Assembly: GCA_022824405.1 (NCBI GenBank) | Contig: JAJDZZ010000035.1 | Span: 1 to 60,745 of the forward strand | Reading direction: 5' to 3' | Length of the DNA: 60,745 nt | From: Opitutales bacterium | Lineage (GTDB): Bacteria > Verrucomicrobiota > Verrucomicrobiia > Opitutales > UBA2995 | Shown here: in pieces, positions 18,778-41,212 of the stretch | How the letters are laid out: every line of letters begins with the position of its first letter | How positions within the stretch are numbered: the first letter of the stretch is position 1 | The notes under the pieces: model-generated | Databases searched by the model: none | Told to the model about the DNA's origin: nothing | Seen by the model: only the letters and a program-made list of their open reading frames with translations | Made by a program: the position numbers and the translations under genes

Positions 18778-18799
18778 GGAACTGCCCATCCGATTTTCG

Positions 18800-21700: not shown

Positions 21701-21907
21701 GTGTGCGGTCACTTTCCCCTCGTTCTGGTAACGGGCGCCGGGGCGGAAGCCCGGAACAGTATTGGGCTCATTATCGTTGGAGGTATGGCGATCGGGACCT
21801 TTTTCACCCTTTTGATCATCCCATCCATTTACATGCTGATCGCCAAAGATCATAAAGGCACAAGGGACACGGCCATCCGTTTGGAACCAACTCCCGAAAC
21901 GCATTGA
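18800..21907 (+). CDS. RND multidrug efflux pump (MexB/AcrB-like, HAE1)
   Basis: 1035-aa inner-membrane proton-driven pump with 12 expected membrane helices and two large periplasmic loops. The N-terminus FTDIFIKRPVLATVVNLV is typical. The proton-relay residues are present: the Asp pair in TM4 (VGLVVDDAIVVVENVDR) and the TM10 lysine K926 (GIVSKNGILIVEF), with RLRPVLMTSMATVCGHFPL in TM11. It therefore belongs to the classical Lys-containing branch, unlike the three pumps at 28.7-38.6 kb. Partners are the adaptor 22 nt upstream and TolC downstream. Confidence 0.93.
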   Translation: MKSFTDIFIKRPVLATVVNLVIVIAGLQAINSLNVREYPRNENAAITITTVYVGADAELVRGFITTPIEQAIAEADGIEYIESTSAQSISIITVRLKLNYDSTKALAEIGSKVDRIRNDLPPSAELPSINITPADSQIAVAYLNFSSEELEQNEITDFVIRVVQPRLSAIEGIQRAEVLGGGTFAARIWLKPDRMAALNISPSQIRQAVAANNVLSAPGSTKGALVQVDLTANTDLRSIEEFRRLVIKQEGNAVVRLEDVADVELGSEDYETEVRYSGRKATFIAIYVLPNANAIDVLNAVAEEMEALQNDLPPGISANIGYDATEYIRTAIAEVIKTLSETLSIVVLVIFLFLGSVRSALVPVVAIPVSLIGAVFLMQLFGFSLNLLTLLAILLSVGLVVDDAIVVVENVDRNLHLGKSPLEAAILGVRELVGPIIAMTLTLAVVYAPIGFQGGLTGSLFREFAFTLAGAVLISGVVGLTLSPVMSAKLLKPSEKDRWLKRFVNGRFDLAKRLYARVLDATLAMRPLVYIVWIVLALLTFSMFTMVPDELAPTEDQSVIFGILETPPNSTVDQLLVSADEINRLWMDIPETQQTFQVTSNAIAMGGMVTVPWSERDRTIFDLFPEVQSKLAVVPGVQVLPLLRPALPGGGIFPVEFVIASTADTELILGFAQEIARKAAESGKFAFPPVVDVKVDQPQAEIIVDRDKVAALGLNLSDVANDISAMFGGNYVNRFSIDGRSYKVIPQIKRVNRLNPEQLTSIYVTGPEGKLIPLSSIATVEYKTVPRSLNRFQQFNSVKISGVAISPLGEALSFLEEEAAKILPQGFVVDYTGESRQLRTEGNKFLPAFSLALVLIFLVLAAQFNSFRDPFVILLGSVPLGMFGAVIFMFLKMPSPNIPFWTDGWTTTLNIYSQVGLITLVGIVSKNGILIVEFANELQRSGLSKLVAVREAALTRLRPVLMTSMATVCGHFPLVLVTGAGAEARNSIGLIIVGGMAIGTFFTLLIIPSIYMLIAKDHKGTRDTAIRLEPTPETH

Positions 21908-21934
21908 TTGTCCATGATCATAGCCTCCATTTAT

Positions 21935-22001
21935 CACAAATTTTCTACTGCATTCCGGAATGCCGGCACTCGACCTCCGTTCGCTCGCTACGAATTTTGT
22001 G
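21935..22001 (+). repeat. REP-like palindromic element before tolC
   Basis: The outer arms CACAAA (21935-21940) and TTTGTG (21996-22001) enclose the perfect 14-nt palindrome GCATTCCGGAATGC (21950-21963) and then CCGGCACT. A related block (TTCTATTGCGCTCCGGAA..CCGGCACT) occurs at 31996-32023 behind another RND gene. The element fills the pump-tolC gap and makes the frame upstream of 22034 look open; it is not expected to be coding. Confidence 0.5.
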
Positions 22002-22033
22002 AGAAATGTGGGTTGGGTAGAGTATCCAATAGA

Positions 22034-23380
22034 ATGAGGCGCCGTGGCTGGGGAATTGTCCTCCTGATATTGGTATGTAAGTTGGCGGCCCCGCTCGCTT
22101 TCGCACGGATGACCGTTCCCATTCCGGACACCCTGGATCTGCCAACCGCTCTGGCCTATGCCCTGGAAAACAATTTTTCCATACTGCAAGCCCAACAGCG
22201 GATCCGGGAGCAGGAAGGACTGATTGTGGAGATTCGTTCCCGGGCGCTTCCCAATGTCAGCCTGGAAGCCGATTATTTCCAACTGGATTCGAATTTGTCA
22301 GAAAACTTCGGCGGCCTTTTCGACCGGAATACGGAAAACTGGAACATTGCCTTGCGCGTTCGCCAAGCCCTTTACAAAGGCGGTGCGATGAAGGCGTCTC
22401 TTCGTTTTCAAGAATTGGTGGAAGAAGCGGTGCTCTACGACCTGAAGGCAACCATCAACTTGGCGGTGCTGGATGTGAGAATCAGGTTTTACGACGTTTT
22501 GCTGGCGCGTGAGCGGATCGCGGTTCAGGAAGAGAACATCAAGCTGTTGGATGAGCAGGTTGTGGATTCCAAAAACCGGCTTGAGGCGGGAACCGTGTCG
22601 CAATTTGAAGTATTGCGGGCCGAAGTGGAACGTGCCAACGCTCAACCTGAGCTGATTGGGGCGCGCAACGACTTTCGTATCGCCATCGAAGAGCTTCGAA
22701 AGACCCTCGGTTTCGCGGGAATCCCGCAGGATTTGGAGTCCACTCCGGAATTCGATGGAAGCCTCGCCTTTGAACCGATCGAATGGGATCTGCGAACCGC
22801 TCTCGAGATAGCCAAAGTCAACCGGCCCGAACTGAAGCAACTGGAGTTGGTTGTGGAGGCGCGGGAACAGGGTATCGTCATAGAGCGAGCGGAAAAACGG
22901 CCGGATGTCGAATTCGTTGGAGGTTTCCAGATCAACAAATCTGCCGTATCCAACAGTTTCAGTAATGCCCTTAATGGCTGGATGCTGGGGGTTCAGAGCA
23001 GTTGGGCCATTTGGGACGGCAGGGAAATGGACGGCAGGATTCGTCAAGCCCAGTCACAGTTGGAACAGGCCCGGCTCGACCTTGGCGAGGCGACCTTGGA
23101 AGTAGAAGTGGAGGTGCGCCGCGCCTTACACGATTTACAGGAGGCCGATGAGTTGGCCAAGGCTGCCTCCCTGGTAATCGATCAGGCGGTTGAGGCTCTG
23201 CGTTTGGCCAATGAACGGTACGCAACGGGCGGGGGAACCCAATTGGACGTTTTGCAGTCCCAGGTTGCTCTCACCGAATCGCGCCTGAACCAGGTAGAAG
23301 CCTGCCATAGTTATAAAGTGGCCGAAGCGGGTTTGGCCAAGGCGCTGGGGAATGCCATCCCTTTCGTCCGCAACCCGTGA
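22034..23380 (+). CDS. TolC-family outer-membrane efflux protein
   Basis: 448-aa outer-membrane channel. ATG 22034 is chosen because it begins a good signal peptide (MRRRGWGIVLLILVCKLAAPLAFA); an ATG at 21914 would translate a REP-like element. Two OEP repeats of long amphipathic helices follow (LPTALAYALENNFSILQAQQRI; LEQARLDLGEATLEVEVEVRRALHDLQEA; ALRLANERYATGGGTQLDVLQSQ). It completes the tripartite pump with the preceding adaptor and RND gene. Confidence 0.9.
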   Translation: MRRRGWGIVLLILVCKLAAPLAFARMTVPIPDTLDLPTALAYALENNFSILQAQQRIREQEGLIVEIRSRALPNVSLEADYFQLDSNLSENFGGLFDRNTENWNIALRVRQALYKGGAMKASLRFQELVEEAVLYDLKATINLAVLDVRIRFYDVLLARERIAVQEENIKLLDEQVVDSKNRLEAGTVSQFEVLRAEVERANAQPELIGARNDFRIAIEELRKTLGFAGIPQDLESTPEFDGSLAFEPIEWDLRTALEIAKVNRPELKQLELVVEAREQGIVIERAEKRPDVEFVGGFQINKSAVSNSFSNALNGWMLGVQSSWAIWDGREMDGRIRQAQSQLEQARLDLGEATLEVEVEVRRALHDLQEADELAKAASLVIDQAVEALRLANERYATGGGTQLDVLQSQVALTESRLNQVEACHSYKVAEAGLAKALGNAIPFVRNP

Positions 23381-25756: not shown

Positions 25757-27229
25757 ATGACTTGCCCATTTTCCCGAGTGTGGGGTCTGGTTAGGGCCTC
25801 CCTGACCGGCGCTATTCTTTCCAACGCATTTGTCCTGGTCGCATGCCTCCTCACGGCATTTTTTGCCGGTTGCGTGACCCAGGCCCCACCCAGTCAGGTC
25901 GATAAGCTCGATCTCAGGATTCCGGAACGGTATACGGCGGAGAACGACCCTGCGCCCTTCCGGAATAGCGATTGGATGGAGGACTTCGGCGATCCCCAAT
26001 TGGAAGCTGTCATTCTCGAAGCCCTCCAGCACAATAACGATTTGATGGTTGCGGAGGGTCGTCTGGCGGCTGCCCAGGCCACTTCGGTAATACAGGGATC
26101 CGGAAAATATCCCAGTGTGAGCGTCGGCCACACCGGAAATCGTGCCCAGAGGACTCAAACCCAGGGCTTTGTCATTTCCAGTCGGCTATCGGAAAGCTTT
26201 GGCATTAACAGCCGGGTATCCTGGGAATTGGACATTTGGGGAACCGTTCGGGATCAGGCCAACGCCGGACTGGCCGATTACCAGGCGGCATTCGAGAATT
26301 ACCGAGCAGCCCGGTTTTCCATCGCCGCCCGCACGGCCCGGGCCTGGTACGGCGCCATTACCGCTCAACTGCAACTGAACGTGGCATTGCAAAGCCTGGA
26401 GACCTTCGAGTCCAACCTGGAAATCATAGAGGAAAATTTTAAGCGAGGCCTGGCCCGGGCCCTGGACTTGCGCCTCATGCGGGCCAGCGTGGCCAGTTCC
26501 CGAAGTGCATACGAACAAAGGCTCCGCACCCGGGATGGCGCCATTCGATCCCTGGAAATCCTCCTGGGGCGTTACCCGGGCGATGAGATTGAGATTGCCC
26601 AGGAATTTCCCACCATAAAAAATTCCATTCCGGTCGGGTTGCCCGATGAGTTGCTCATGCGCCGGCCGGATTTGATTGCGGCCGAAAGGCGGTTGGCGGC
26701 CGATGCGACCTTGGTCAAGGCCACCAAGAAAGCGCGTCTGCCCGGGATAGTCCTCACGGGAAGCGGCGGCACGAGCAGCCGGGATTTGGGAGACGTTTTG
26801 AATGACGATTTCAAGGTGTGGAGCCTCAACTATAACATTGGCATGCCCATCTTTCAGGGCGGCCGCCTCTTTGCTTTGGAAAACCGGATTATCTCCCTAT
26901 ACGAGCAATCGCTGGCCAACTTCGCCCAAACCGCCTTGATAGCCTATTCCGAAGTGGAATCGGCCCTGATCGACCAGAATTCCCTCCGGCGCGACGAGGA
27001 GGCACAAAAATTGGCCGTGATCGAATATACCGCGGCCGAGGAACTGGCTTGGGAGCAATACAACCGCGGCCTGGTCGATATCATCACCGTTCTGGAATCG
27101 CAACGCCGCCTGTTCAACGCGCAACGCGCCCTGATCCAGGTGGCCAATCAACGCATACAAAGCCGAATCGATCTCTATTTGGCGCTTGGAGGGGGATTTG
27201 CCCAGGATATAGAATTGGACATCGAATAG
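25757..27229 (+). CDS. Outer-membrane efflux lipoprotein (NodT/OprM family)
   Basis: 490-aa channel with a lipoprotein signal peptide; the lipobox is FFAGC at about residues 34-38. Two TolC-like halves follow with the usual motifs: FGDPQLEAVILEALQHNNDL, SRVSWELDIWGTVRDQ, LPDELLMRRPDLIAAERRL and YNRGLVDIITVLESQRRL. This subgroup (OprM, NodT) pairs with RND pumps. The adaptor starts 9 nt downstream and three RND genes follow, so this channel probably serves all three pumps. Confidence 0.92.
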   Translation: MTCPFSRVWGLVRASLTGAILSNAFVLVACLLTAFFAGCVTQAPPSQVDKLDLRIPERYTAENDPAPFRNSDWMEDFGDPQLEAVILEALQHNNDLMVAEGRLAAAQATSVIQGSGKYPSVSVGHTGNRAQRTQTQGFVISSRLSESFGINSRVSWELDIWGTVRDQANAGLADYQAAFENYRAARFSIAARTARAWYGAITAQLQLNVALQSLETFESNLEIIEENFKRGLARALDLRLMRASVASSRSAYEQRLRTRDGAIRSLEILLGRYPGDEIEIAQEFPTIKNSIPVGLPDELLMRRPDLIAAERRLAADATLVKATKKARLPGIVLTGSGGTSSRDLGDVLNDDFKVWSLNYNIGMPIFQGGRLFALENRIISLYEQSLANFAQTALIAYSEVESALIDQNSLRRDEEAQKLAVIEYTAAEELAWEQYNRGLVDIITVLESQRRLFNAQRALIQVANQRIQSRIDLYLALGGGFAQDIELDIE

Positions 27230-27238
27230 AAATTTCTC

Positions 27239-28696
27239 ATGAAAGTATTACGAATATTATTGCCCTTAGTCATTCTCGGTATTTCCGGCGGCATTGCCTG
27301 GTGGATTTATATCACCAAGCCGGAGCCCCGGGAGCGCAACTTCAATCCCGGCGCCACTGAAGTGGAGGTATTTGCCATTCAACCCGGCAATTTCCGGGTC
27401 GAACTGGAAACCCAAGGCACGGTGCAAGCCAGAACTGAAAGCACGCTGATACCAGAAGTGAGGGGACGTATCCTGGAGATTTCCCCCAATTTTCGCGATG
27501 GCGGGTTCTTTGAACAAGGGGACATGCTATTGAGGATCGATCCTCGGGATTACCAAACCGAACTCGTGGTAGCGGAAGCCAATTTGTCCCAGGCGGAGCT
27601 GGTTCTGGCCGAGGAACAGGCCCGGTCCGATCAGGCTTATCAGGACTGGGAGCGGTTGAACCTGGACGAGGTTCCCGGCGACCTGGTTTTGCGCACCCCC
27701 CAATTGAATCGAGCCAAGGCAAATGTGGCCTCGGCCCAGGCTCGGCTGGAAAACGCCCGCCGTAATCTGGTGAAGACCGAAATTGTGGCTCCCTACGCCG
27801 GCCGGGTTTTGAACCAGAACGTGGACGTGGGCCAATTCGTTTCCCCCGGCAACCAATTGGCCCGAATTTACGCGGTGGATTTTGCCGAAGTACGCCTTCC
27901 CCTCACCGAGTCCCAACTGTCCTTCCTGGAACTTCCCGAAATCTACCGGGGAGAGCAACCCTCCTTCAGTGATGGGCCAAATGTTACCCTCACTTCCAAC
28001 GCGGCGGGAAATACGCACCAATGGCGCGGTCGCATCGTGCGTGCCGAAGGCAGTTTCGACGTCCGGACCCGGCAGTTATTCGTTATTGCCCAGATCCGCA
28101 ATCCTTACGGCAGAACTGCCGATGATCGCCCCCCCTTGAAAGTAGGCACTTTTGTGCAGGCCACCATCCTTGGATCCGTCCTGGAAAATGTATTCGTCGT
28201 TCCCCGACGTCTACTAAGGGAGAACTCCTTTGTGTTGGCGGTGGACGGCGATAATCGATTGCGCCGAAAGCCGGTCAACATCGTTTGGCAGAATGACGAT
28301 TCCATAGTGGTGGACCAAGGCCTGGAACCGGGCGATCGCATCTGCCTGACGGACGTGCCCTTTGCCCTGGAAGCCTTGCAGGTGTCGGCAACCGAGTTGG
28401 AAGAACTGCCCTTTGAAGTAGAAAAAGTCGACCTGGAAGAAGTCATTGCCCGGCGCGCCCAACGGCCTGCCGGCGGCGGAGGACCCGGCGGCGGAGGACC
28501 CGGCGGGTTCCTCAACCAGATCCTGGCAAGCATTCCGGAGGATAATCCGCTTCCGGACGAACTGAAGATGAAAGTGGACGCCGCCGTGGCCAGTGGGGAC
28601 CGCAACCGGATTCGCCCGCTCATGCAGGAGGTGCGGGCCTGGGCGGAATCTCAGGGAATCGAGCTTCCAGCCGGTCGAGGACCTCCTCGCGGATAA
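27239..28696 (+). CDS. RND efflux periplasmic adaptor with Gly/Pro-rich C-terminal extension
   Basis: 485-aa membrane fusion protein. An N-terminal membrane segment (about 3-23) precedes lipoyl halves (VQARTESTLIPEVRGRILEI; APYAGRVLNQNVDVGQFVSPG) around a coiled coil (NRAKANVASAQARLENARRNL), then the beta-barrel and membrane-proximal domains. The tail from about residue 405 is unusual: a repeated G/P-rich stretch (PAGGGGPGGGGPGG) and a charged helical end of about 60 residues. It is the only adaptor for the three tandem RND genes, the first of which begins 47 nt downstream. Confidence 0.9.
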   Translation: MKVLRILLPLVILGISGGIAWWIYITKPEPRERNFNPGATEVEVFAIQPGNFRVELETQGTVQARTESTLIPEVRGRILEISPNFRDGGFFEQGDMLLRIDPRDYQTELVVAEANLSQAELVLAEEQARSDQAYQDWERLNLDEVPGDLVLRTPQLNRAKANVASAQARLENARRNLVKTEIVAPYAGRVLNQNVDVGQFVSPGNQLARIYAVDFAEVRLPLTESQLSFLELPEIYRGEQPSFSDGPNVTLTSNAAGNTHQWRGRIVRAEGSFDVRTRQLFVIAQIRNPYGRTADDRPPLKVGTFVQATILGSVLENVFVVPRRLLRENSFVLAVDGDNRLRRKPVNIVWQNDDSIVVDQGLEPGDRICLTDVPFALEALQVSATELEELPFEVEKVDLEEVIARRAQRPAGGGGPGGGGPGGFLNQILASIPEDNPLPDELKMKVDAAVASGDRNRIRPLMQEVRAWAESQGIELPAGRGPPRG

Positions 28697-28743
28697 GCTG
28701 TAATCGGATGCCTTGGACGCGGTAACGATAAGGACGGAGAGAG

Positions 28744-31700
28744 ATGAACCGAATCATTGACTGGTTTGCCAGAAATGGAGTGGCCGCCAATCTGCTTATG
28801 GTAGCCATTATTGCCGGGGGCATATGGTCTGCCCAGGAGCGCATCATTTTGCAGGAGTTTCCGGAATTCCCCGTCCGAACCATCACGGTCAGCATGTCCT
28901 ACCGCGGATCGACCCCCGGAGAGATAGAACAGGCCATTGTGACCCGTCTGGAGGAAGCCCTTTACGACATCGAGGGAGTAAAGGAAATTGATGCCAGGGC
29001 CAGCTCCAGCAGCGGGGCGGTCGCCCTCGAAATCGAGGAAGGCTACGACCTGAACGAAAAATTGGATGAAGTGACCAATCGGGTTTCCACTATCCGCACT
29101 TTCCCGCCGGAAGCCGAACGGCCCCAAATCAGCCTCTTTTCCCGTGCCGAAAGGGTGATCACCATGGTTTTGTCGGGGGATTTGAGCGAAAAGGAGGTAA
29201 AGCAACTGGGCGAACACATCCGGGACGAGGTGTCCAATATCCCCGGCATCACCCTGGCCACTCTCAAGGCGGTCCGTCCCTACGAGATCGCCATTGAAAT
29301 CTCCGAGGACACCATGCGTCAGTACGGCCTTACCTTCGCCCAGGTGACCCAGGCCATTCGGGCTTCCTCCGTCGATCTTTCGGCCGGAATGGTCAAGTCG
29401 GAAACCGGGCGGATTTTACTTCGTACCAACGAACAGGCTTATGATCAGTCGGACTATTCCTCTATCCGGCTGTTGACCCGAGACGATGGAACGAAAATCA
29501 CGGTGGGGGATATCGCCACCGTGATCGATGGTTTCGATGAAATTCCCATAGTTGCCAAATACAACGGCAAACGGGCCATTGCCATCGATGTTTACAGAAC
29601 GGGTTTACAAAATATCATCGAGATTGGGGACGACGTTAAGGCATTCATCGCCGACAAGCAGCAGCAATTGCCCGAAGGGATCGAATTGACCTATTGGGAT
29701 GACGATTCCGAAAGGATCAAGATACGCCTGTCCACTTTGCAAGACAGCGCCATGCTGGGGTTCATCCTGGTCGTTGTCATCCTTTCCCTTTTCCTGCGTC
29801 CCACTTTGGCTTTCTGGGTGGCCTGGGGCATACCGATCGCTTTTGCCGGGACCTTCTTTATCCTTCCCTTCATGAACGTGACGCTCAACCTGATCACGCT
29901 CATGGCTTTCATTACCACCCTGGGAATCGTGGTGGATGACGCAATTGTGACGGGAGAAAACGTCTTCCAGCACATGCAAAGGGGGGCCAACCCGCTCACG
30001 GCCTCCATTAAAGGCACCCAGGAAGTGGCCACACCGGTCATTTTTGGAGTCATCACCACCATGGTGGCTTTCTACCCCCTCATGATGCAGACGGGTTCCA
30101 GGGGGAGTTTTTTCAAAAATATTCCCATGGTGGTCGTTCCGGTGCTGTTGTTTTCCCTGGTGGAATCGAAATTGATCCTTCCGGCCCACCTCAAGCACTG
30201 TACCCACTTGGGGGACAAAAAAGAAAAGCTGGGAAGGTTCACTCGTTTTCAACGGTTCTTTGCCGATGGCCTGGAAACTTTCATATTAAAGTACTACCGG
30301 CCCACCTTGAACTTGGCCTTGGCCAACCGCTATACGTCGGTCTCCCTGTTCATCGGCTTTCTGCTGGTGTTTATCGCCCTGGTCATGGGTGACCGGATCG
30401 GCTACCGCCCCCGTCCCAACATCCCGAGGGACACCACCACCATCACCTTGCAAATGCCGGCCGGCACCACTTTCGAAACGACTCAGGAAAAGGTGGACAT
30501 GATCGAGGCCTGCGCCCTGCAGTTGAAAAAGGAAGTAAACGAGCGGTACGGAACCACTGTCATCCAAAACGTCTTTGCCACGGCGGGCGGTCAACCGTTT
30601 GGGAGCGGTCGCCGGCGCGGTGGCGGTCCCAGGGCGGGAGTGGCCGAGTTGGGAGAAATATTGATCGAGCTCAGCCCATCCGAAACCCGGGAAGTCGAGT
30701 ACAGCAGCCGCAATCTGGTAGCGGATATGCGGAACCTGGTGCCGCCCATACCCGAAGCGGAACAATTGAATTTTTCCTTTGCCCGCGGCGGCGGCGGGGC
30801 GGCCCTGACTTTCGAACTCATCCACCCGGACATCGAAATGCTCAAAGCGGCGTCTCGCGACCTCCAGGTCAAGCTGGCATCCTTTGCCGGACTTTACGAT
30901 ATCGAGGACTCCTACGAGCGAGCCAATGAAGAATTCGAGCTGGACCTGAAGCCGGAAGCGAAATTCCTGGGGGTAACCGCCTCCAATCTGGCCCAGCAGG
31001 TGAGAACGGCATTTTTCGGTTCCGAAGCCCAGCGCATACAACGGGGACGCGACGAAGTGCGGGTAATGGTCCGCTATCCGGAAGATCAACGCCGTTCCCT
31101 GGCCGCCTTGCATACCATGATGATCCGAACCGCCAACGGATCGGAAGTTCCCTTTGAAAACGTTGCCGAAATTGTGCCCGGGAAAAGCCTTCCCGCCATT
31201 CGACGGGTGGACCGCAAGCGCATAATCCAGGTAAGTGCGGATGGAGATACCGAGGAGTTGGACTTCGAGACCATCGAGTCCGAAGTTCTGGAAAGGTTCC
31301 TGCCGGAATTGGAGGCAACCAAGTATCCCGGATTGGGCTTCGGAGTGCGGGGAAGGTCCCAGGAAGTCCGCGATAACAACAGGGAGATGATCATGGGCAT
31401 TTATGTCATTTTGGGGGTGATTTATGCCCTTTTGGCTATTCCCTTCAGAAGTTATTTTCAGCCCCTAATCGTCATGTCGGCTATTCCCTTTGGCGTGGTA
31501 GGGGCGATTTTGGGCCACTTTTTGATGGCCAAGTTCTTTGGGTTCAACAATGGCGATCCCATCATCAGCCAGACCTCTATTTTCGGGATGATGGCCCTCT
31601 CCGGGGTAGTGGTAAACGACAGCCTGGTCATGGTCCACTATATGAATTCCCGGATTAAGGAAGGGATGCCCTTGGGCGAGGCGGTCCGTCTGGCCGGGGT

Positions 31701-31977
31701 GCGCCGCTTTCGTCCCATACTCCTGACGTCGCTTACCACCTTTTTCGGTCTGGCGCCTCTCATGTTCGAAGACAGCCCTCAAGCCGCCTTCCTCGTTCCC
31801 ATGGCCATTTCACTGGGTTGGGGCATCATATTTGCCACTGCCATTACCCTAATCCTGGTTCCGGTCCTCGTCCTGGTTTACAACGACCTGCAGCAAGGCT
31901 TTTATAAGCTCTACAATATCAACCCCCGCATCTCCGAGGAGGAGGATGAGGAGGATGGGGCGCTAACCCCGGCATAG
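28744..31977 (+). CDS. RND efflux pump, tandem paralogue 1
   Basis: 1077-aa RND permease. The N-terminus is MNRIIDWFARNGVAANLLM, with 12 expected membrane spans and two periplasmic domains. The TM4 Asp pair is D398-D399 (GIVVDDAIVTGENVF). The TM10 position that is Lys in AcrB is Asn here (N958 in SGVVVNDSLVMVH). TM11 retains RRFRPILLTSLTTFFG. A Gly/Arg-rich insert (GSGRRRGGGPR) lies in the second periplasmic loop. The tail is acidic. GGAGAGAG precedes the ATG. It is highly similar along its whole length to the next two genes. Confidence 0.92.
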   Translation: MNRIIDWFARNGVAANLLMVAIIAGGIWSAQERIILQEFPEFPVRTITVSMSYRGSTPGEIEQAIVTRLEEALYDIEGVKEIDARASSSSGAVALEIEEGYDLNEKLDEVTNRVSTIRTFPPEAERPQISLFSRAERVITMVLSGDLSEKEVKQLGEHIRDEVSNIPGITLATLKAVRPYEIAIEISEDTMRQYGLTFAQVTQAIRASSVDLSAGMVKSETGRILLRTNEQAYDQSDYSSIRLLTRDDGTKITVGDIATVIDGFDEIPIVAKYNGKRAIAIDVYRTGLQNIIEIGDDVKAFIADKQQQLPEGIELTYWDDDSERIKIRLSTLQDSAMLGFILVVVILSLFLRPTLAFWVAWGIPIAFAGTFFILPFMNVTLNLITLMAFITTLGIVVDDAIVTGENVFQHMQRGANPLTASIKGTQEVATPVIFGVITTMVAFYPLMMQTGSRGSFFKNIPMVVVPVLLFSLVESKLILPAHLKHCTHLGDKKEKLGRFTRFQRFFADGLETFILKYYRPTLNLALANRYTSVSLFIGFLLVFIALVMGDRIGYRPRPNIPRDTTTITLQMPAGTTFETTQEKVDMIEACALQLKKEVNERYGTTVIQNVFATAGGQPFGSGRRRGGGPRAGVAELGEILIELSPSETREVEYSSRNLVADMRNLVPPIPEAEQLNFSFARGGGGAALTFELIHPDIEMLKAASRDLQVKLASFAGLYDIEDSYERANEEFELDLKPEAKFLGVTASNLAQQVRTAFFGSEAQRIQRGRDEVRVMVRYPEDQRRSLAALHTMMIRTANGSEVPFENVAEIVPGKSLPAIRRVDRKRIIQVSADGDTEELDFETIESEVLERFLPELEATKYPGLGFGVRGRSQEVRDNNREMIMGIYVILGVIYALLAIPFRSYFQPLIVMSAIPFGVVGAILGHFLMAKFFGFNNGDPIISQTSIFGMMALSGVVVNDSLVMVHYMNSRIKEGMPLGEAVRLAGVRRFRPILLTSLTTFFGLAPLMFEDSPQAAFLVPMAISLGWGIIFATAITLILVPVLVLVYNDLQQGFYKLYNINPRISEEEDEEDGALTPA

Positions 31978-31987
31978 CTCGCATGTC

Positions 31988-32111
31988 TCACATATCTTCT
32001 ATTGCGCTCCGGAACACCGGCACTAGTGCGGGCTTCCTTGGGCTGAGGAAGGGGTCAAGCCTTGAATCAGTTGACTCCGCAAGCTGCGTCAAGATTACAA
32101 GGCATGACCCC
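31988..32111. repeat. Two REP-like elements between RND paralogues 1 and 2
   Basis: First, a block like that before tolC (31996-32023, TTCTATTGCGCTCCGGAA..CCGGCACT). Then GGGGTCAAGCCTTG (32051-32064) pairs with CAAGGCATGACCCC (32098-32111) with one mismatch. An inner stem TTGAC..GTCAA with GCA/TGC lies inside. The long hairpin sits in the 170-nt gap of the pump cluster and could reduce read-through to the second and third pumps. Confidence 0.6.
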
Positions 32112-32147
32112 GGCATCGCGCCCCGTTGAGATAAATTTCCCGACAAA

Positions 32148-35100
32148 ATGCACGGATTAATAGCCTGGTTCACCCGAAACGGAGTCGCCGCCAATCTATT
32201 GATGACCGCCCTGGTGGTGGGAGGACTCTGGTCCTTGAGCAATCGGATGATCCTGCAGGATTTTCCCGATATGCCCCTGCGCACCATTTCCGTTTCGGTC
32301 CTTTACCGCGGATCCACCCCGGGAGAAATGGAACAGGCCATTGTCAGCAGGTTGGAGGAAGCCCTTTACGACATAGAAGGCATCGAACAAATGGATTCCG
32401 TGGCCACCGCCAATATGGGCACGGTAAACCTGGAAATCGAAGAGGGTTTCAACATGAGCGAGAAGCTCGATGAGGTGGCCAATCGCGTTTCCACGATCCG
32501 CACATTTCCCCCCGAGGCGGAGCGGCCTCAGATCAATTTGAGACGTCTCTCCGAGAAGGTCATCACCATTGTCCTTTCGGGTGATTTGAGCGAGAGGGAA
32601 ATGAAAGTTCTGGGGGAACGGTTGCGGGATGAGGTTTCGACCCTTCCAGGCATTACCCTGGCTGCCTTGTTGGCGGACCGGCCCTATGAAATAGCTATCG
32701 AAATTCCCGAAGCCACCCTGAGGGAATACGGACTGACTTTCGATCAGATAGCCCGGGCCATTCGCACTTATTCGGTCGATTTATCCGCCGGCAGTGTGAA
32801 TACCGATACCGGACGCGTATTGTTGCGCACCAATGAGCGGGCTTATAATCGGGAGGACTACGCGGCTATCCCCCTCATGAACCGTCCCGACGGGACCGAG
32901 TTGACCCTTGGGGAAATTGCCACCGTCCTGGACGGCTTCGAGGAAACCCCCATTGTGGTGCGATTCAACGGAGAGCGGGCCCTCGGCATCGATATCTTCA
33001 GAACGGGCGACCAGAGCTTTATCGAGATCGGCGATACCATCAAGGACTTCATCGTCCGAAAACAGGAACAATTGCCGGAGGGTATTCATTTGAGCTATTG
33101 GCGCGACCGTTCCCACTCCATCAAGGTTCGGCTTTCCATCCTGTTGGATAGCGCTCTTGTGGGATTTTGTCTCGTGGTGGGGGTTCTCTCCCTCTTTTTG
33201 CGTCCCACCCTGGCCTTTTGGGTCGCCTGCGGCATACCCATCGCCTTTGCCGGATCTTTTCTCCTGCTCCCTTACCTGGGGGTAACCATCAATCTCCCGG
33301 TCATTTTGGCATTTATCACCACCTTGGGTATCGTGGTGGATGACGCCATCGTGACGGGGGAGAACGTCTTTCAGCACATGCAGCGGGGCTCCAAACCGTT
33401 GAGCGCGGCTATCAAGGGAACCCAGGAGGTGGCGATTCCAGTCTTTTTCGGGGTTATCACCACCATGGCGGCATTTTACCCTCTCTTTCTCATGACGGGT
33501 AGACAAGGCGCCAATTTCCGCAACATTCCCCTGGTGGTCATACCCGTCCTGCTTTTTTCCCTGATCGAGTCCAAGCTCGTATTGCCGGCCCATTTGAAGC
33601 ATTGCACGCATTTGGGAGACAAAGGGCCTGGCCGAAATCCCTTTACGCGGTTTCAGCGGTTTTTTTCCGATGGGTTGGAAGGGGCCGTCCTCAAGTACTA
33701 CCGACCCTCTCTGGATTGGGCTCTGAAAAACCGTTACACATCCATTTCCATCTTTGTGGCCATCCTTCTCCTCTTTGTCGCTCTGGTCCTGGGCGACCGC
33801 ATCGGTTACCGCGGCAGACCGGTCAATCCGCGGGATACGGCCACGGTTTCCCTGCAAATGCCCGCCGGCAGCAATTTCGAAACCACTCTGGAGAAAGTGG
33901 ATCTCATCGAATCGGCTGCCCTGCAGTTGAAGAAAGAGGTGAACGAACGGTTTGGAACCACCGTCATTCAAAACGTGGTGGCCTCTGCCGGGGGTCAGCC
34001 CTTCAGCGGCAGCCCTATCGGTGGCTACGGTCCGGCCTCCGGGGTGGATGAACTGGGGGAAGTCATCATCGAATTGACACCCTCCGAAACCCGGGAAGCG
34101 GACTACGGGGCCCGGGAATTGGTTGCGGAGATGCGGGAGTTGGTTCCTCCCATTCCCGAGGCCGAGCAGTTGAGTTTTTCATTTGCGGGTGGGGGTTCCG
34201 ATGCGGTCCTGAACTTCGAACTCATCCACCCGGATGTCGAAGTGCTCAAAGCCGCCTCGGCCGACCTGCAGGCAAAGCTGAATACCTTCGAAGGATTATT
34301 TGACATCGGCGATTCCTACGAGCAAGCCACGGAGGAGTATGGATTAAACCTGAAGCCCGAAGCCGAATACCTGGGGATCAGCCCCAGCAATTTGGCCCAA
34401 CAGGTCAGGGCGGCCTTCTTCGGGGCGGAAGCCCAGCGCATTCAGCGGGGCCGGGATGAGGTTCGCGTCATGGTGCGGTATCCCATAGCGGAGAGGCGTT
34501 CGCTGGGTTCTCTGCAAAACATGATGATTCGCACCGCCAATGGAACGGAGGTTCCCTTTGAAACGGTGGCCGAGGTCGTCCCCGGGGAAAGCGTTCCCTC
34601 CATTCGACGGGTCGATCGCAAGCGCATCATTCAGGTGACGGCGGACGGAGATTCGGAAAAGTACGATATCGAAGCCATGGAGGTGGAGGTCCTGGAGGAA
34701 TTTCTCCCCAAGTTGGTGGCCACCAAGTATCCGGGCATGGAATTCGACGTGCGCGGGCGGGCGGCCGAGACCCGCGACAACAACAAGGAAATCATTTGGG
34801 GGGTTTACTTTATCCTGGCCGTTGTCTATGCCCTGCTGGCCATTCCCTTCCGCAGTTACTTCCAGCCCCTCATCGTGATGTCCGCCATCCCCTTCGGGGT
34901 GGTTGGAGCGATAATAGGACACTGGGTCATGGCGGTCGTTTTCGGGTGGAACGGCGGCGACCCCAAATTGTTCCAGTCCTCCATGTTCGGGATGATGGCG
35001 CTTTGCGGAGTGGTGGTGAACGACAGTCTGGTCATGGTTCACTTCATGAATGGCAGGGTGAAGGAAGGAATGCCCCTGGGCGAGGCGGTTCGCTTGGCCG

Positions 35101-35372
35101 GGGTCCGCCGCTTTCGTCCCATCCTGCTGACTTCCCTGACCACCTTTTGCGGCTTGGCCCCCCTCATGTTGGAAGACAGCCCCACCGCTTCCTTTCTCAT
35201 ACCCATGGCCATTTCCCTGGGATGGGGCATCCTTTTCGCTACTACCATCACTCTGATCCTGGTGCCGGTGCTGGTCTTGATTTTCGATGATCTGAAAAGC
35301 GCCTTTTGTAAGATCTATAACATCGCGCCCCATGCACCGGAGGGCGCGGTCGAAAAGGAGGCTCCAGGCTGA
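32148..35372 (+). CDS. RND efflux pump, tandem paralogue 2
   Basis: 1074-aa RND permease starting MHGLIAWFTRNGVAANLLM. The TM4 Asp pair is present (GIVVDDAIVTGENVF). TM10 again has Asn instead of Lys (CGVVVNDSLVMVH). TM11 reads RRFRPILLTSLTTFCGLAP. The second periplasmic loop carries SGSPIGGYGP where paralogue 1 has an Arg-rich insert. It is the most divergent of the three (for example WACGIPIAF for WAWGIPIAF, and ERDY-type changes in the porter loop). Paralogue 3 starts 25 nt after it. Confidence 0.92.
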   Translation: MHGLIAWFTRNGVAANLLMTALVVGGLWSLSNRMILQDFPDMPLRTISVSVLYRGSTPGEMEQAIVSRLEEALYDIEGIEQMDSVATANMGTVNLEIEEGFNMSEKLDEVANRVSTIRTFPPEAERPQINLRRLSEKVITIVLSGDLSEREMKVLGERLRDEVSTLPGITLAALLADRPYEIAIEIPEATLREYGLTFDQIARAIRTYSVDLSAGSVNTDTGRVLLRTNERAYNREDYAAIPLMNRPDGTELTLGEIATVLDGFEETPIVVRFNGERALGIDIFRTGDQSFIEIGDTIKDFIVRKQEQLPEGIHLSYWRDRSHSIKVRLSILLDSALVGFCLVVGVLSLFLRPTLAFWVACGIPIAFAGSFLLLPYLGVTINLPVILAFITTLGIVVDDAIVTGENVFQHMQRGSKPLSAAIKGTQEVAIPVFFGVITTMAAFYPLFLMTGRQGANFRNIPLVVIPVLLFSLIESKLVLPAHLKHCTHLGDKGPGRNPFTRFQRFFSDGLEGAVLKYYRPSLDWALKNRYTSISIFVAILLLFVALVLGDRIGYRGRPVNPRDTATVSLQMPAGSNFETTLEKVDLIESAALQLKKEVNERFGTTVIQNVVASAGGQPFSGSPIGGYGPASGVDELGEVIIELTPSETREADYGARELVAEMRELVPPIPEAEQLSFSFAGGGSDAVLNFELIHPDVEVLKAASADLQAKLNTFEGLFDIGDSYEQATEEYGLNLKPEAEYLGISPSNLAQQVRAAFFGAEAQRIQRGRDEVRVMVRYPIAERRSLGSLQNMMIRTANGTEVPFETVAEVVPGESVPSIRRVDRKRIIQVTADGDSEKYDIEAMEVEVLEEFLPKLVATKYPGMEFDVRGRAAETRDNNKEIIWGVYFILAVVYALLAIPFRSYFQPLIVMSAIPFGVVGAIIGHWVMAVVFGWNGGDPKLFQSSMFGMMALCGVVVNDSLVMVHFMNGRVKEGMPLGEAVRLAGVRRFRPILLTSLTTFCGLAPLMLEDSPTASFLIPMAISLGWGILFATTITLILVPVLVLIFDDLKSAFCKIYNIAPHAPEGAVEKEAPG

Positions 35373-35397
35373 CCTGTCCTCCAACGCCACGAGAAGA

Positions 35398-38300
35398 ATG
35401 CACCGAATAATCGCTTGGTTTGCCAGAAACGGAGTGGCCGCCAATTTGCTCATGGTAGCCATACTGGCCGGGGGGATCTGGTCCGGATTTACCCGAATCG
35501 TGTTACAGCAGTTCCCCGATTTTCCCCTGCGCTTCATCACTGTCTCCATGCTCTATCGCGGGGCAACCCCCGGGGAGATCGAACAGAGTATCATAACCCG
35601 ATTGGAGGAGAACCTATACGATATCGAGGGGTTGAAGGAAATGACGGCTACCGCCACGGCCAATACGGGGACGGTCATGCTGGAGATCGAGGAGGGTTAC
35701 AGCATGAGCGAAAAACTGGACGAGGTGACCAATCGGGTTTCCACCATTCGCGCCCTTCCTCCCGAGGCGGAGCGACCCCAAATCAGCCTGGCTTCCCGAT
35801 CGGAACGGGCCATAACCCTGGTTTTATCGGGGGACCTGAGCGAAAAAGAAGCGAAAAAGCTGGCTGAGCAAATCCGCGACGAGGTGGCGAGCCTTCCCGA
35901 CGTGACCTTGACCTCCCTCAAAGCGGTCCGTCCCTATGAAATAGCCATTGAAGTTTCCGAGGCGGCCCTACGGCAGTATGGGCTGACCTTTGAGCAAATC
36001 GCCCGCGCCATCCGCAGGTCCTCGGTCGATTTGTCAGCCGGCAGCGTAAAGACGGAAACGGGCCGCATATTGTTACGCACGGACCACCAGGCCTACAATT
36101 TCGAAGATTACTCCTCCATTACCGTTTTGACCCGGGCCGATGGCACCAAATTGAAGGTGGGAGATATTGCCACCGTCATAGACGGTTTCGATGAAACGCC
36201 GATCGTGGCCCAATTCAACGGCGAACGGGCCATTGCCATCGACGTGTTCAGGGCAGGGGAGCAGAACGTCATCGAGATCGGTCGACAGGTAAAGGAATAT
36301 ATCGCGAACAAACAGCAACAACTGCCCGAGGGGATTCGCCTGAGTTTCTGGGATGACGATACCGAGCGGATCAAGGTGCGCTTGGCCACCTTGCAGGATA
36401 GCGCCATATTGGGATTCCTGCTGGTCGTCGTCATCTTGTCCCTTTTTCTCCGGCCAAGCCTGGCCTTCTGGGTGGCCTGGGGCATTCCCATCGCCTTCGC
36501 GGGTACGTTTCTGGTTCTGCCCTACCTGGGAGTGACCCTGAATGTCGTTACCCTGATGGCATTTATCACAACCCTGGGGATTGTGGTAGACGATGCCATT
36601 GTCACCGGGGAAAACGTCTTTCAGCACATGCAACGGGGGGAGAAACCTTTGGCTGCTTCCATCAAGGGCACCAACGAGGTTGCCGTTCCTGTCATCTTCG
36701 GGGTCATTACCACCATGGTGGCGTTTTACCCCCTCATGATGCAGTCCGGGCGCATGGGCAGTATTTTTGCCAACATCCCCATCGTGGTGATTCCGGTCCT
36801 GTTTTTCTCCCTCATCGAGTCAAAATTGATCCTGCCGGCTCACCTGAAGCATTGTACCTATTTGAAGGATGCGAGGAAAAAGCAGAATCCGATTATCCGA
36901 TTCCAGCGATTTTTTGCCGACGGCCTTGAGCGGTTTATCCTGAAATACTACCGACCGGCTTTAAACTGGGCCCTGATCAACCGCTACGCCTCCTTATCGG
37001 TTTTTATTGGATTTCTCCTTGTTTTCGTAGCGCTCGTGTTCGGTGAGCGCATTGGTTTCCGGAGCTTTCCCAATGTTCCATCCGACACTACCACCATTAC
37101 CCTGCAGATGCCGTCCGGAACCACTTTCGAAACCACCCGGGAGAAGGTCGCCATGATAGAGGCTTCCGCCCTGCAATTGAAAAAGGACGTGAATGAGCGT
37201 TCGGGGGAGACCGTTATCCGAAATGTCTTCGCCACCGCGGGGGGACAACCCTTTGGAAGAACCCGCCGTCGCAGCTCCACCCCGGCTGCCGGCGTGGCCG
37301 AGATTGGCGAAATTCTCATCGAATTGAGCCCCGCCGAAACGCTCGATGTATCCTATACGAGCCGGGAAATGATCACGGAATTGAGGCAGCTCGTTCCTCC
37401 TATCCCCGAAGCCGAACAGTTGAACTTTTCCTATTCCCGTTTCGATTCCGGCGCAGCCATGACGTTTGAACTCATCCATCCCGACGTCGACCTCCTCAAG
37501 GAAGCGTCAGCGGATTTGCAGCGAAAGTTGGCTACTTATGACGGGGTATACGACATAGAGGACTCCTACGAACGCGCCGCCGAAGAGTATGAACTGGATC
37601 TGAAACCCGAGGCCGAATACCTCGGCGTGACCGCGGCCAACCTCGCCCAGCAGGTCAGATCCGCCTTTTTCGGAACCGAAGCCCAGCGCATACAGCGTGG
37701 ACGGGATGAAGTCAGGGTGATGGTGCGCTACCCGGAAACAGAGCGCCGCTCGATCGGTTCCCTGCAATCGATGATGATCCGCACCGCCACCGGCGCCGAA
37801 GTGCCCTTCGAAACAGTAGCGGAAATCGTTCCCGGCAAAAGCCTGCCCTCCATTCGGCGAGTGGACCGGAAACGCATCATCCAGGTCAGCGCGGATGCGG
37901 ACAGCCTGGTAACGGACACCGATGCTATTCAGTTCGAAATTCTCGACGAGTATTTGCCCCAAATTGTCGCCACCAAGTATCACGGCATGGAATACCAATT
38001 GAGGGGATTTGCCGCCGATGCACGGGAAAACCAAAGGGAATTGTTCCTGGGCATTTATTTCATTCTCGGGGTCATCTATGCCTTGTTGGCCATTCCCTTC
38101 AGGAGTTACGTGCAGCCGCTGGTGGTCATGTCGGCCATTCCCTTCGGGGTGGTGGGAGCCCTGATCGGGCACTGGATCATGGCCACCGTCTTTGGGTGGA
38201 ATAACGGCGCTCCCATCATCACTTTGCAGTCCATTTTCGGGATGATGGCGTTGTCGGGAGTTGTGGTGAACGACAGCCTGGTCATGGTCCATTTCATGAA

Positions 38301-38628
38301 TAGAAAAGTTAAGGAGGGCATGCCGCTCGGGGAGGCGGTCCGCTTGGCCGGAGTGCGTCGTTTCCGTCCCATCATGCTAACCTCTGCCACCACCTTCTTC
38401 GGTCTGGGACCTTTGATGTTCGAAGACAGCCCGCAAGCGGCCTTTCTGGTGCCCATGGCCATCTCATTGGCTTGGGGAATTGTCTTCGCCACCGCCATTA
38501 CCCTGGTGCTCGTTCCGGTGCTCGTGCTCATTCACAACGACCTCAAGCAATTCTTCTGCAGGCTGTATAACATCGATCCCAATGCCCACCGGGTTGAAGA
38601 ACGGGTTGAAGCACAGAGCCCGGTTTAA
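35398..38628 (+). CDS. RND efflux pump, tandem paralogue 3
   Basis: 1076-aa RND permease. ATG 35398 is chosen because it gives MHRIIAWFARNGVAANLLM, aligning with the two paralogues; an in-frame ATG at 35332 would overlap the preceding gene. Key residues match the siblings: Asp pair in GIVVDDAIVTGENVF, Asn in SGVVVNDSLVMVH, and RRFRPIMLTSATTFFG. It is closer to paralogue 1 than to 2 (shared RTRRRSS/GRRRGG insert, WAWGIPIAFAGTF). It is the last gene of the efflux cluster. Confidence 0.92.
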   Translation: MHRIIAWFARNGVAANLLMVAILAGGIWSGFTRIVLQQFPDFPLRFITVSMLYRGATPGEIEQSIITRLEENLYDIEGLKEMTATATANTGTVMLEIEEGYSMSEKLDEVTNRVSTIRALPPEAERPQISLASRSERAITLVLSGDLSEKEAKKLAEQIRDEVASLPDVTLTSLKAVRPYEIAIEVSEAALRQYGLTFEQIARAIRRSSVDLSAGSVKTETGRILLRTDHQAYNFEDYSSITVLTRADGTKLKVGDIATVIDGFDETPIVAQFNGERAIAIDVFRAGEQNVIEIGRQVKEYIANKQQQLPEGIRLSFWDDDTERIKVRLATLQDSAILGFLLVVVILSLFLRPSLAFWVAWGIPIAFAGTFLVLPYLGVTLNVVTLMAFITTLGIVVDDAIVTGENVFQHMQRGEKPLAASIKGTNEVAVPVIFGVITTMVAFYPLMMQSGRMGSIFANIPIVVIPVLFFSLIESKLILPAHLKHCTYLKDARKKQNPIIRFQRFFADGLERFILKYYRPALNWALINRYASLSVFIGFLLVFVALVFGERIGFRSFPNVPSDTTTITLQMPSGTTFETTREKVAMIEASALQLKKDVNERSGETVIRNVFATAGGQPFGRTRRRSSTPAAGVAEIGEILIELSPAETLDVSYTSREMITELRQLVPPIPEAEQLNFSYSRFDSGAAMTFELIHPDVDLLKEASADLQRKLATYDGVYDIEDSYERAAEEYELDLKPEAEYLGVTAANLAQQVRSAFFGTEAQRIQRGRDEVRVMVRYPETERRSIGSLQSMMIRTATGAEVPFETVAEIVPGKSLPSIRRVDRKRIIQVSADADSLVTDTDAIQFEILDEYLPQIVATKYHGMEYQLRGFAADARENQRELFLGIYFILGVIYALLAIPFRSYVQPLVVMSAIPFGVVGALIGHWIMATVFGWNNGAPIITLQSIFGMMALSGVVVNDSLVMVHFMNRKVKEGMPLGEAVRLAGVRRFRPIMLTSATTFFGLGPLMFEDSPQAAFLVPMAISLAWGIVFATAITLVLVPVLVLIHNDLKQFFCRLYNIDPNAHRVEERVEAQSPV

Positions 38629-38860: not shown

Positions 38861-41212
38861 GTGACCTCCGGAGTTGAATTGGTTGCCAATTTTTTCGACT
38901 TCCTTTGGATGTCATTTTTGTTGCTGGCGCCCATGCTTTTGCTCGGGCTGTTTCTTTCCGGCCTGATCCATGTATTCATCTCCCGCCAGGCCATACTCCG
39001 GTGGCTCCGGGAGGACAGCCTGAAATCCGTTTCCACCAGCGCTGCCGTCGGCGTACCCGTTCCCCTCTGCAGTTGTTCCGTAGTCCCCGTGGTTGCGGAG
39101 ATGCGCAGAAAAGGAGCCTCCCGTTCCTCCTGCATGTCCTTTCTCATTACAGCCCCCGAAACGGGAGCGGATTCGATCCTGGTCACCAATGCCTTCTTCG
39201 GTCCCATCGTGGCCATTATCAGGCCCGTCATCAGTTTCCTCACCGCGGTTGTGGCGGGAATCTTCTGTATCGGACTCATCAGAAGCGACCACGATCACGA
39301 CCATGATCACGACCATGACCACGACCACGATCACGACCATGATCACGACCATGACCACGACCATGATCACGATCATGATCACGACCACGGCCACGACCAT
39401 GACCACGGCCATGATCACGGCCACCAACCCCTCATCTCGGAGAGTAACGATTGCTACGTCAGCCCCACTCAACTGAAGACACTACTGTTCGAATGGTTGA
39501 AGAGGCTGGCTACCGCTGCCAGCAGGTGGAAATTCGGATCCTGGGTGAAACCCGAATTCTATTTCCGCTCGGAGGATGTGGAAGAACAATCCGATGAGGA
39601 TACTCCTTCGGGCAGCTTAACGACGGATGGGCAACGCCTGGACTTCAAAAAACTTACCAAGCACATCTTTCGCTACGGTTTCGTCGAGATTGCGGACGAC
39701 ATTCTCTTCGCCTTGCTGGTGGGGATAATTTTGGGGGGATTTCTTTATCTCGCCATACCCAGTGATCTGATGTCGAACGAGTATGCCCGGTGGTTATCCT
39801 ATCCCATCATGGTGTTGGTCGGGATTCCCCTCTACATCTGTGCGTCTGCCAGTACCCCGATCGCCGCCGCCCTGGTGGCCAAGGGATTCAGCCCTGGCGC
39901 CGCACTGATCTTCCTCATGACCGGCCCTGCAACCAATACGGGTACCATCGCCATTATCATCAGTCAGTTTGGCGTCCGCTTCGCCTCCGTCTACGTCGGC
40001 GCGGTCATCGCCGTAACCGTCGTCTTGGGTATCGCGGTCGATATGCTGGTTTTGGCCTTCGGTCTGTCCATTTCCGTGAACCTCACCGCCTCTCACTCCC
40101 CTGCCATCATGTTTCTGCAGTGGGGAGGCGCCATAATTCTGTTCGCCCTGGTCATTTGGCGGTTCCGGGCCGGGGCCATGCAGAGTGGCTACGAGGATTT
40201 GATAAGCAATTTCCGCCCCTTGTCCAGGCGCTGGAGAAAGGTGTGGGGACGTCTGACCCGCAGTCGTTCCTTCCGGGGCGCCATCTCTCCCACCACGCCC
40301 ATGGGCCTGATGCTTTGGATATTGGCCATCGTCCTGTTTCTTGCCAGTGGTTTCACGATAGTGCCTCCCGGTAACGTCGGTTACGGTCGGCTGCTCGGCA
40401 AGGTCTACTGGCGCGATCTGCAACCCGGGCTGCATTACCTTGCCCCCCGACCCTTGGTAAAAACCGACAATTGGCCCGTGAGGGAAGTGAAGTCCATCAT
40501 GTCCAACGACCCCCACGAGTATGTCTCGGGCGACCTCAACCTCTTATCCGTGACCGTCAATGTGCAATATCGGGTCAAAGACCCCTATACCTACCATTAC
40601 CGGACGACAAATGCGCCAGAGATGATCGACAGCATGGTCCGGGACCATCTGCGTTCCTTTGTCTCCGCCAGAGATTTGGAGCAGTTGCTCAACGTATATC
40701 GGGTAACCATTGAACAGCATGTCATCGACTTGTTCCAAAGCGGTGAGGAGGGAAAAGGAACCGTGCTAGAAGCGGTGGATCTGGTCAAGGTAAGCTTGTT
40801 GGAGATCAAACCCGTAACGGAAACCATGAACGCCTTCCGCAATGTATCGAGCGCTCAGGAGGATCGGGAGCGGATCATTGTCAATGCGCAAAAATACCTG
40901 GTTTCATTGGCGCCCCAGGCCCATGGCAATGCGGAGTGGGAGACCAAGCAGGCGGAAGGAGAGGCCTACAGGAAGGTGACAACGGCCGAAGCTGAAGCCG
41001 AAGCCATCTCCAAGGTGTCCTCGGCGGTTCGCAACGCGCCTAAAGTCTTGAGGAACATGCTGTGGAGGGAAAAGTTGGAGACCGCTTTATCCGGCAATGC
41101 CAAAATCATAGTGCCCAGTAGAGAAAGCCTCGATAAGATCGCGTTGTGGAAGAGAAATGCAAATGGAGCGGGCGCCGAGGCCCGACCTCATCATGAGAGG
41201 GGAAAAGAATGA
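38861..41212 (+). CDS. Cu/Zn-efflux-type permease fused to an HflK-like SPFH domain
   Basis: 783 aa from GTG 38861; a TGA 15 nt upstream excludes an earlier start. Residues 1-140 are the first half of a DUF318/SO_0444-type permease with a C70-S-C72 motif (VPLCSCSVVPV). Residues 143-188 are 23 consecutive Asp-His or Gly-His dipeptides. Residues about 260-440 are the second permease half (ASASTPIAAALVAKGFSPGAAL, GPATNTGTIAI). From about 480 a further membrane span leads into an SPFH/HflK domain (FTIVPPGNVGYGRLLGKV, VNVQYRVKDPYTYHYR) with the Ala/Glu-rich tail typical of HflK. Ordinary SO_0444 permeases end near 400 aa. It overlaps the next gene by ATGA. Confidence 0.85.
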   Translation: MTSGVELVANFFDFLWMSFLLLAPMLLLGLFLSGLIHVFISRQAILRWLREDSLKSVSTSAAVGVPVPLCSCSVVPVVAEMRRKGASRSSCMSFLITAPETGADSILVTNAFFGPIVAIIRPVISFLTAVVAGIFCIGLIRSDHDHDHDHDHDHDHDHDHDHDHDHDHDHDHDHDHGHDHDHGHDHGHQPLISESNDCYVSPTQLKTLLFEWLKRLATAASRWKFGSWVKPEFYFRSEDVEEQSDEDTPSGSLTTDGQRLDFKKLTKHIFRYGFVEIADDILFALLVGIILGGFLYLAIPSDLMSNEYARWLSYPIMVLVGIPLYICASASTPIAAALVAKGFSPGAALIFLMTGPATNTGTIAIIISQFGVRFASVYVGAVIAVTVVLGIAVDMLVLAFGLSISVNLTASHSPAIMFLQWGGAIILFALVIWRFRAGAMQSGYEDLISNFRPLSRRWRKVWGRLTRSRSFRGAISPTTPMGLMLWILAIVLFLASGFTIVPPGNVGYGRLLGKVYWRDLQPGLHYLAPRPLVKTDNWPVREVKSIMSNDPHEYVSGDLNLLSVTVNVQYRVKDPYTYHYRTTNAPEMIDSMVRDHLRSFVSARDLEQLLNVYRVTIEQHVIDLFQSGEEGKGTVLEAVDLVKVSLLEIKPVTETMNAFRNVSSAQEDRERIIVNAQKYLVSLAPQAHGNAEWETKQAEGEAYRKVTTAEAEAEAISKVSSAVRNAPKVLRNMLWREKLETALSGNAKIIVPSRESLDKIALWKRNANGAGAEARPHHERGKE
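39287..39424 (+). repeat. In-frame (GAYCAY)n tract encoding poly(Asp-His)
   Basis: 138 nt of 6-nt repeats encode 23 D-H/G-H dipeptides in the cytosol-facing loop between permease halves. Third-base variation (gac/gat, cac/cat) shows it is old enough to have diverged synonymously while the peptide stayed perfect. Likely metal-binding; its repeat number could vary between strains. Confidence 0.85.

Follow-up and report, generated by a model that had tools for sequence, protein, structure and literature searches.

How do three RND permease genes come to stand in a row behind a single periplasmic adaptor and a single outer-membrane channel, and how would their products share these partners? The question is raised by a 60,745-nucleotide stretch of DNA from an Opitutales bacterium, which is analysed here as a whole and referred to as the window. 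Our results are best explained by repeated tandem duplication of a single RND permease gene, specific to one lineage, within an Opitutales OMF-MFP-RND efflux operon; the duplication itself is shown by the data below.

The genes for the outer-membrane factor (OMF), the adaptor (MFP) and the permeases RND1, RND2 and RND3 occupy positions 25757–38628, all on the plus strand and in one direction, with intergenic gaps of 9, 47, 170 and 28 bp in that order. The OMF (25757–27229; 490 aa) matches Pfam OEP (E = 3.9e-37) and belongs to the NodT subfamily (TIGR01845, 274.6 bits against a cut-off of 210), and the adaptor (27239–28696; 485 aa), found in the genome-wide list of adaptors, scores 160.7 bits with TIGR01730 RND_mfp, above the cut-off. 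RND1 (28744–31977; 1077 aa), RND2 (32148–35372; 1074 aa) and RND3 (35401–38628; 1075 aa) match Pfam ACR_tran (PF00873) over nearly the whole profile, with E-values of 9.6e-160, 1.7e-143 and 7.4e-159 and scores of 533.8, 480 and 530.9 bits against a cut-off of 28. The homologous start of RND3 is the ATG at 35401 and not the start of the open reading frame at 35332, which would give 1098 aa. None of the named NCBIfam RND subfamilies exceeded its curated cut-off, the best being RND_permease_2 with 435–462 bits against 1250, and the predicted structure of RND1 (mean pLDDT 51, pTM 0.41) was too poor to serve as a query for structure searches. The first-pass annotation, made from the sequence alone, had described three tandem paralogous pumps with one adaptor and one channel, and the intact reading frames and the single NodT-type OMF and MFP upstream bear this out.

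The three permeases are 75% (RND1-RND3), 71% (RND1-RND2) and 69% (RND2-RND3) identical to each other. Since the array pumps share only 20–24% identity with AcrB, AcrD, AcrF, MdtB and MdtC, and 21–22% with the other RND permease of the window (18800–21907), their mutual resemblance reflects true recent homology and not generic RND similarity. The TM4 motif TTLGIVVDDAIVT and the TM10 motif GVVVNDSLVM are common to all three, as had been noticed, and so is a Gly/Arg-rich insert at the switch-loop position (in RND1 at about residues 615–637, positions 30586–30654 of the plus strand, aligned to AcrB 605–632), with differing sequences in the three pumps. A shared N-terminal start is likewise found in all three, except that RND1 reads MNRIIDWF and not the AWF given for it. 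An assembly artefact is ruled out, as the copies are only 69–75% identical and arrays occur in independent assemblies, one of them a complete chromosome. The window also holds a second, unrelated MFP-RND-OMF operon upstream (17653–23380), of the Acr/RND_permease_2 type and with its own adaptor and channel. Downstream, at 38861–41212, an ArsP-type permease is fused to a Band 7/SPFH domain and carries a long His-Asp repeat within the permease part; it is followed by two more genes and by one for a periplasmic binding protein, and this cluster is also kept in the sister species (G001).

To which pumps does the adaptor at 27239 belong? Besides the three array pumps, the genome has seven other RND places (C85, C7:18812, C51, C61, C63, C33 and C79), and an adaptor match lies close by at all seven. 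Of the remaining adaptor matches, the four main ones (C62, C72, C69 and C44) adjoin MacB-type ABC permease genes; this tally covers the main matches, with weak ones lying on C38 and C35. Because the other RND permeases have their own adaptors and the remaining main adaptors lie beside MacB-type genes, the three pumps have a single dedicated adaptor, the one at 27239, although they may also use some other adaptor in trans.

In the trees, the array pumps form one fully supported clade together with two further kinds of copies, termed X-type and single B-type, so that an origin by duplication, as had been proposed, holds with 100% support in a phylogeny that includes homologues. RND2 falls in group B and RND3 in group C; both groups also hold pumps of a second genus, with support of 100 and 99–100. 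RND1 groups with the remaining array copies as group A, a loose set and no clean clade. Forcing the pumps of the window genus to be monophyletic was rejected (delta lnL 119, p-AU 3.9e-9), and the duplications are therefore older than both genera. Separate acquisition of the three pumps, which the first-pass annotation had weighed against its own proposal, is ruled out by the trees and the AU test. Paralogues 1 and 3 had been thought closer to each other than to 2: this is true by identity (75%), but the order of the A/B/C splits varies with the domain and the root chosen, and copy 2 is mainly fast-evolving.

We then compared the array across relatives, joining array orders across contig ends by inference. 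The window array reads A-B-C. In the sister species and in G006, A-B and B-C lie on two contigs; G005 has A-A-B-C, and the complete chromosome of G002 has A-A-A-B-C. G004 carries an A copy and, on a second contig that opens with the tail of another A-like copy, B-A-C; G003 carries an A copy and, on a second contig, A-A-B, with no C seen after B. Thus, there are three to five permeases per array, with one adaptor and one channel, within one Opitutales family. The NodT-type OMF upstream is kept in relatives, and the block of desaturase, SGNH hydrolase, channel, adaptor and array is kept in most genomes of the same family. Outside the family, at most one such pump per adaptor was found at more than 60 other loci (Verrucomicrobiota, Gammaproteobacteria and others), as judged from a 78-locus scan that includes some loci of the array-bearing family and from a set of fetched neighbourhoods. 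The order-wide scan scored two candidates per genome, and tandem copies there were checked by fetched neighbourhoods and a full search in seven genomes. At one of the single-pump loci (L131:15207-15692), a near-identical copy of the 3' end of the adjacent RND pump, with a 503-aa gene in between, marks a partial tandem duplication.

B-type pumps also occur in Opitutaceae of another family. In L103 and L104 they are single and accompanied by one adaptor, which is sister to the array adaptors in the tree; at L105–L110 and L079 they are orphans, with no adaptor recognised nearby (some of these contigs are short). Some of these genomes also carry a channel-adaptor-pump operon of the ancestral type (L104/L123, L103/L114 and L107/L117, paired by contig prefix). 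L104 also has a short relic of an RND C-terminus (L104:22587-22853), roughly 9 kb downstream from its lone B-type pump. The occurrence of B-type pumps outside the family points to either transfer or an ancient duplication with later loss, and suggests that a B-type pump can work in the absence of A and C. In the second genus, X-type copies are located away from the array, and the neighbourhood of the X gene in G002 showed no adaptor directly beside it.

These distributions bear on how the three pumps would assemble. We favour, with a probability of roughly 0.6, a model in which the copies are interchangeable permeases with different substrate ranges, assembling mostly as homotrimers on one shared adaptor and channel. 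Each copy would be a complete proton- or cation-driven permease, all copies would dock onto a common adaptor and channel, and they would differ mainly in the substrate-binding porter domain, so that several pumps of differing substrate range would feed one envelope conduit; the array genes would be co-transcribed, the trimers would be mostly homomeric, and each copy would have distinct substrates. Homotrimers are favoured because the copy number varies and single and orphan relatives exist, although the single and orphan B-type pumps, being in other families, might have changed partners, which weakens the argument. An obligate hetero-trimer of fixed composition resembling MdtB2C, whether with A, B and C in equal parts or in another ratio, is improbable. 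It would account for the MdtABC-like layout, in which several permease genes follow a single adaptor gene, and for the fact that the species of the window, G001 and G006, which represent two genera, all retain A, B and C; it sits poorly, however, with one to three A copies per array, with the missing C after B in the G003 array and with B-type pumps that stand alone or orphaned elsewhere. The first-pass annotation had offered hetero-trimers or parallel substrate ranges; three to five copies, lone and orphan B-type pumps and orphan X-type pumps weaken the former, and the latter fits better.

All copies appear to be maintained. D407, D408, R971 and T978 (AcrB numbering) are present in RND1, RND2 and RND3 and in all copies whose sequence spans these positions, and dN/dS between the window and the sister species is 0.070 for copy 1, 0.071–0.086 for copy 2 and 0.072 for copy 3 (range across copies 0.07–0.09). 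Because the TM4/TM10 residues are kept and dN/dS is low, we conclude that all three copies are maintained; a degenerate, inactive subunit is ruled out by the presence of these residues in all copies. Retention of the relay does not separate homomers from heteromers, since MdtB and MdtC also keep the whole relay. The relay departs from that of AcrB at its fifth residue, K940, which is replaced by Asn in the array pumps (VVVNDSLV; RND1 TM10, about residue 958) and likewise in each of the 81 matches aligned from the 78-locus set. Judging from the residues, this Asn beside an Asp may point to an altered ion coupling; the Na+-dependent VexEF is reported to belong to a non-HAE-1 RND clade (PMC10872679).

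Could the copies simply provide more of the same pump? Copy number does differ between species, but functional equivalence with dosage amplification only is highly improbable: the window copies are only 69–75% identical, synonymous sites between copies are close to saturation, no low-synonymous tract indicating recent gene conversion between copies was found, groups B and C stay distinct in both genera, and the copies differ in their porter domains and switch loops. RND2, the most diverged copy, lacks the RRR that the switch-loop insert has in RND1 and RND3, and carries several pocket residues of its own, among them Leu instead of Lys at AcrB 178 and Arg instead of Asp at 327.

We next compared the divergence of the domains, whose borders were carried over from AcrB by alignment at 20–21% identity. 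Dock domains are generally best kept and porter domains least. Between the window paralogues, identity is 70–79% in the dock domain, 71–77% in the TM domain and 63–70% in the porter domain, and between those of G002 it is 82–88%, 67–83% and 62–77%; RND1/RND2 is an exception to the dock-highest pattern (dock 70%, TM 72%). The corresponding values are 66%, 76% and 54% for AcrB/AcrD and 44%, 60% and 42% for MdtB/MdtC. In G002, the dock domain is 6.7 points more identical between paralogues than between cross-genus orthologues (95% interval 3.3–10.2), with -2.3 points for the porter and -6.4 for the TM domain. In G004 this difference in the dock domain is +1.7 points and falls short of significance, and it is absent in the window, where the docking domain of RND2 has itself diverged. 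The inter-subunit arm (AcrB 205–245) is 94–100% identical between the copies of G002 and 66–74% between those of the window, compared with 59% for AcrB/AcrD and 31% for MdtB/MdtC. Neither the docking domain nor the arm thus shows an MdtBC-like specialisation, a further point against a fixed hetero-trimer.

The well-conserved arm makes it possible that A, B and C also assemble facultatively, in any combination and on one adaptor, into mixed trimers with composite substrate ranges. We regard this as a doubtful possibility. The arm identities, far above the 31% of MdtB/MdtC, and docking domains that are generally the best-conserved part would fit it, as would a joint production of the copies, which probably are made together because their genes are same-strand neighbours with short gaps; homotrimers on a shared adaptor, however, would also show conserved interfaces. 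It is tempting to speculate further about a combinatorial pump, in which A/B/C trimers of variable composition on one adaptor and channel would have their export range tuned by copy number and mix, an idea we consider unlikely.

Joint production may be uneven. The 170-bp gap between RND1 and RND2 (31978–32147) contains a REP-like palindrome at 32051–32111, with arms at 32051–32064 and 32098–32111 (GGGGTCAAGCCTTG ... CAAGGCATGACCCC); 37 matches to the arms were found genome-wide, compared with 0 for a reversed-pattern control, and the genome has Y1_Tnp genes, of the REP-associated transposase family. In the sister species the gap is 66 bp and lacks the palindrome. The palindrome may lower or uncouple the expression of RND2 and RND3. 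A scan for internal promoters gave 7 consensus matches against 7.4 expected from shuffles, that is, the shuffle level.

Together, our results favour interchangeable, mainly homotrimeric permeases on shared partners and place the array beside three kinds of known systems. A published survey, covering 6205 RND permeases in 920 genomes, reported 203 tandem repeats, described as two-permease repeats and all within the MdtBC clade, and explained them by one ancestral duplication (PMC10872679). The arrays are an exception to this Mdt-only statement, with their clade, a candidate for the HAE-4 family (clade H, possibly G), placed here only as outside Acr/Mdt, and nothing matching three-RND operons was found among the listed titles and abstracts of the open-licence literature. 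Relative to the open-licence literature searched, it is new that tandem permeases arose independently outside the MdtBC clade and reached three to five copies. The natural series of 1, 3, 4 and 5 pumps per adaptor offers a direct test of diversification by homotrimers, mixed trimers or fixed heterotrimers, and of the constraint that sharing an adaptor places on the docking surface.

MdtABC, MuxABC and SmeIJK likewise combine one adaptor with tandem RND permeases born by duplication (PMC7015380, PMC10872679), and the array, with one MFP followed by three tandem permease genes, has the same layout. Those systems have two permeases that are about 50% identical, whereas the arrays have three to five that are 68–81% identical. 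The array pumps do not belong to the MdtB/MdtC lineage: MdtB and MdtC join AcrB across a branch with support of 100, and the identity is 22–24%. Because the array pumps fall outside the Acr/Mdt clades, their duplication is independent of that of MdtBC. MdtB2C is reported to be active only as a heterotrimer, while the variable copy number and single-pump relatives of the array argue against a fixed ratio. The single-pump OMF-MFP-RND operons of other Opitutales and Gammaproteobacteria (for example L113, L114, L142 and L147) share the gene order, the subfamily (45–63% identity) and the TM10 motif VVVNDSLV, but have one permease only. AcrB and AcrD of E. coli offer the functional likeness, as different homotrimeric permeases that work on one AcrA-TolC and are least conserved in the porter domain; AcrD is encoded elsewhere on the chromosome with no adjacent adaptor, whereas the array sets its alternative permeases in tandem right behind the adaptor.
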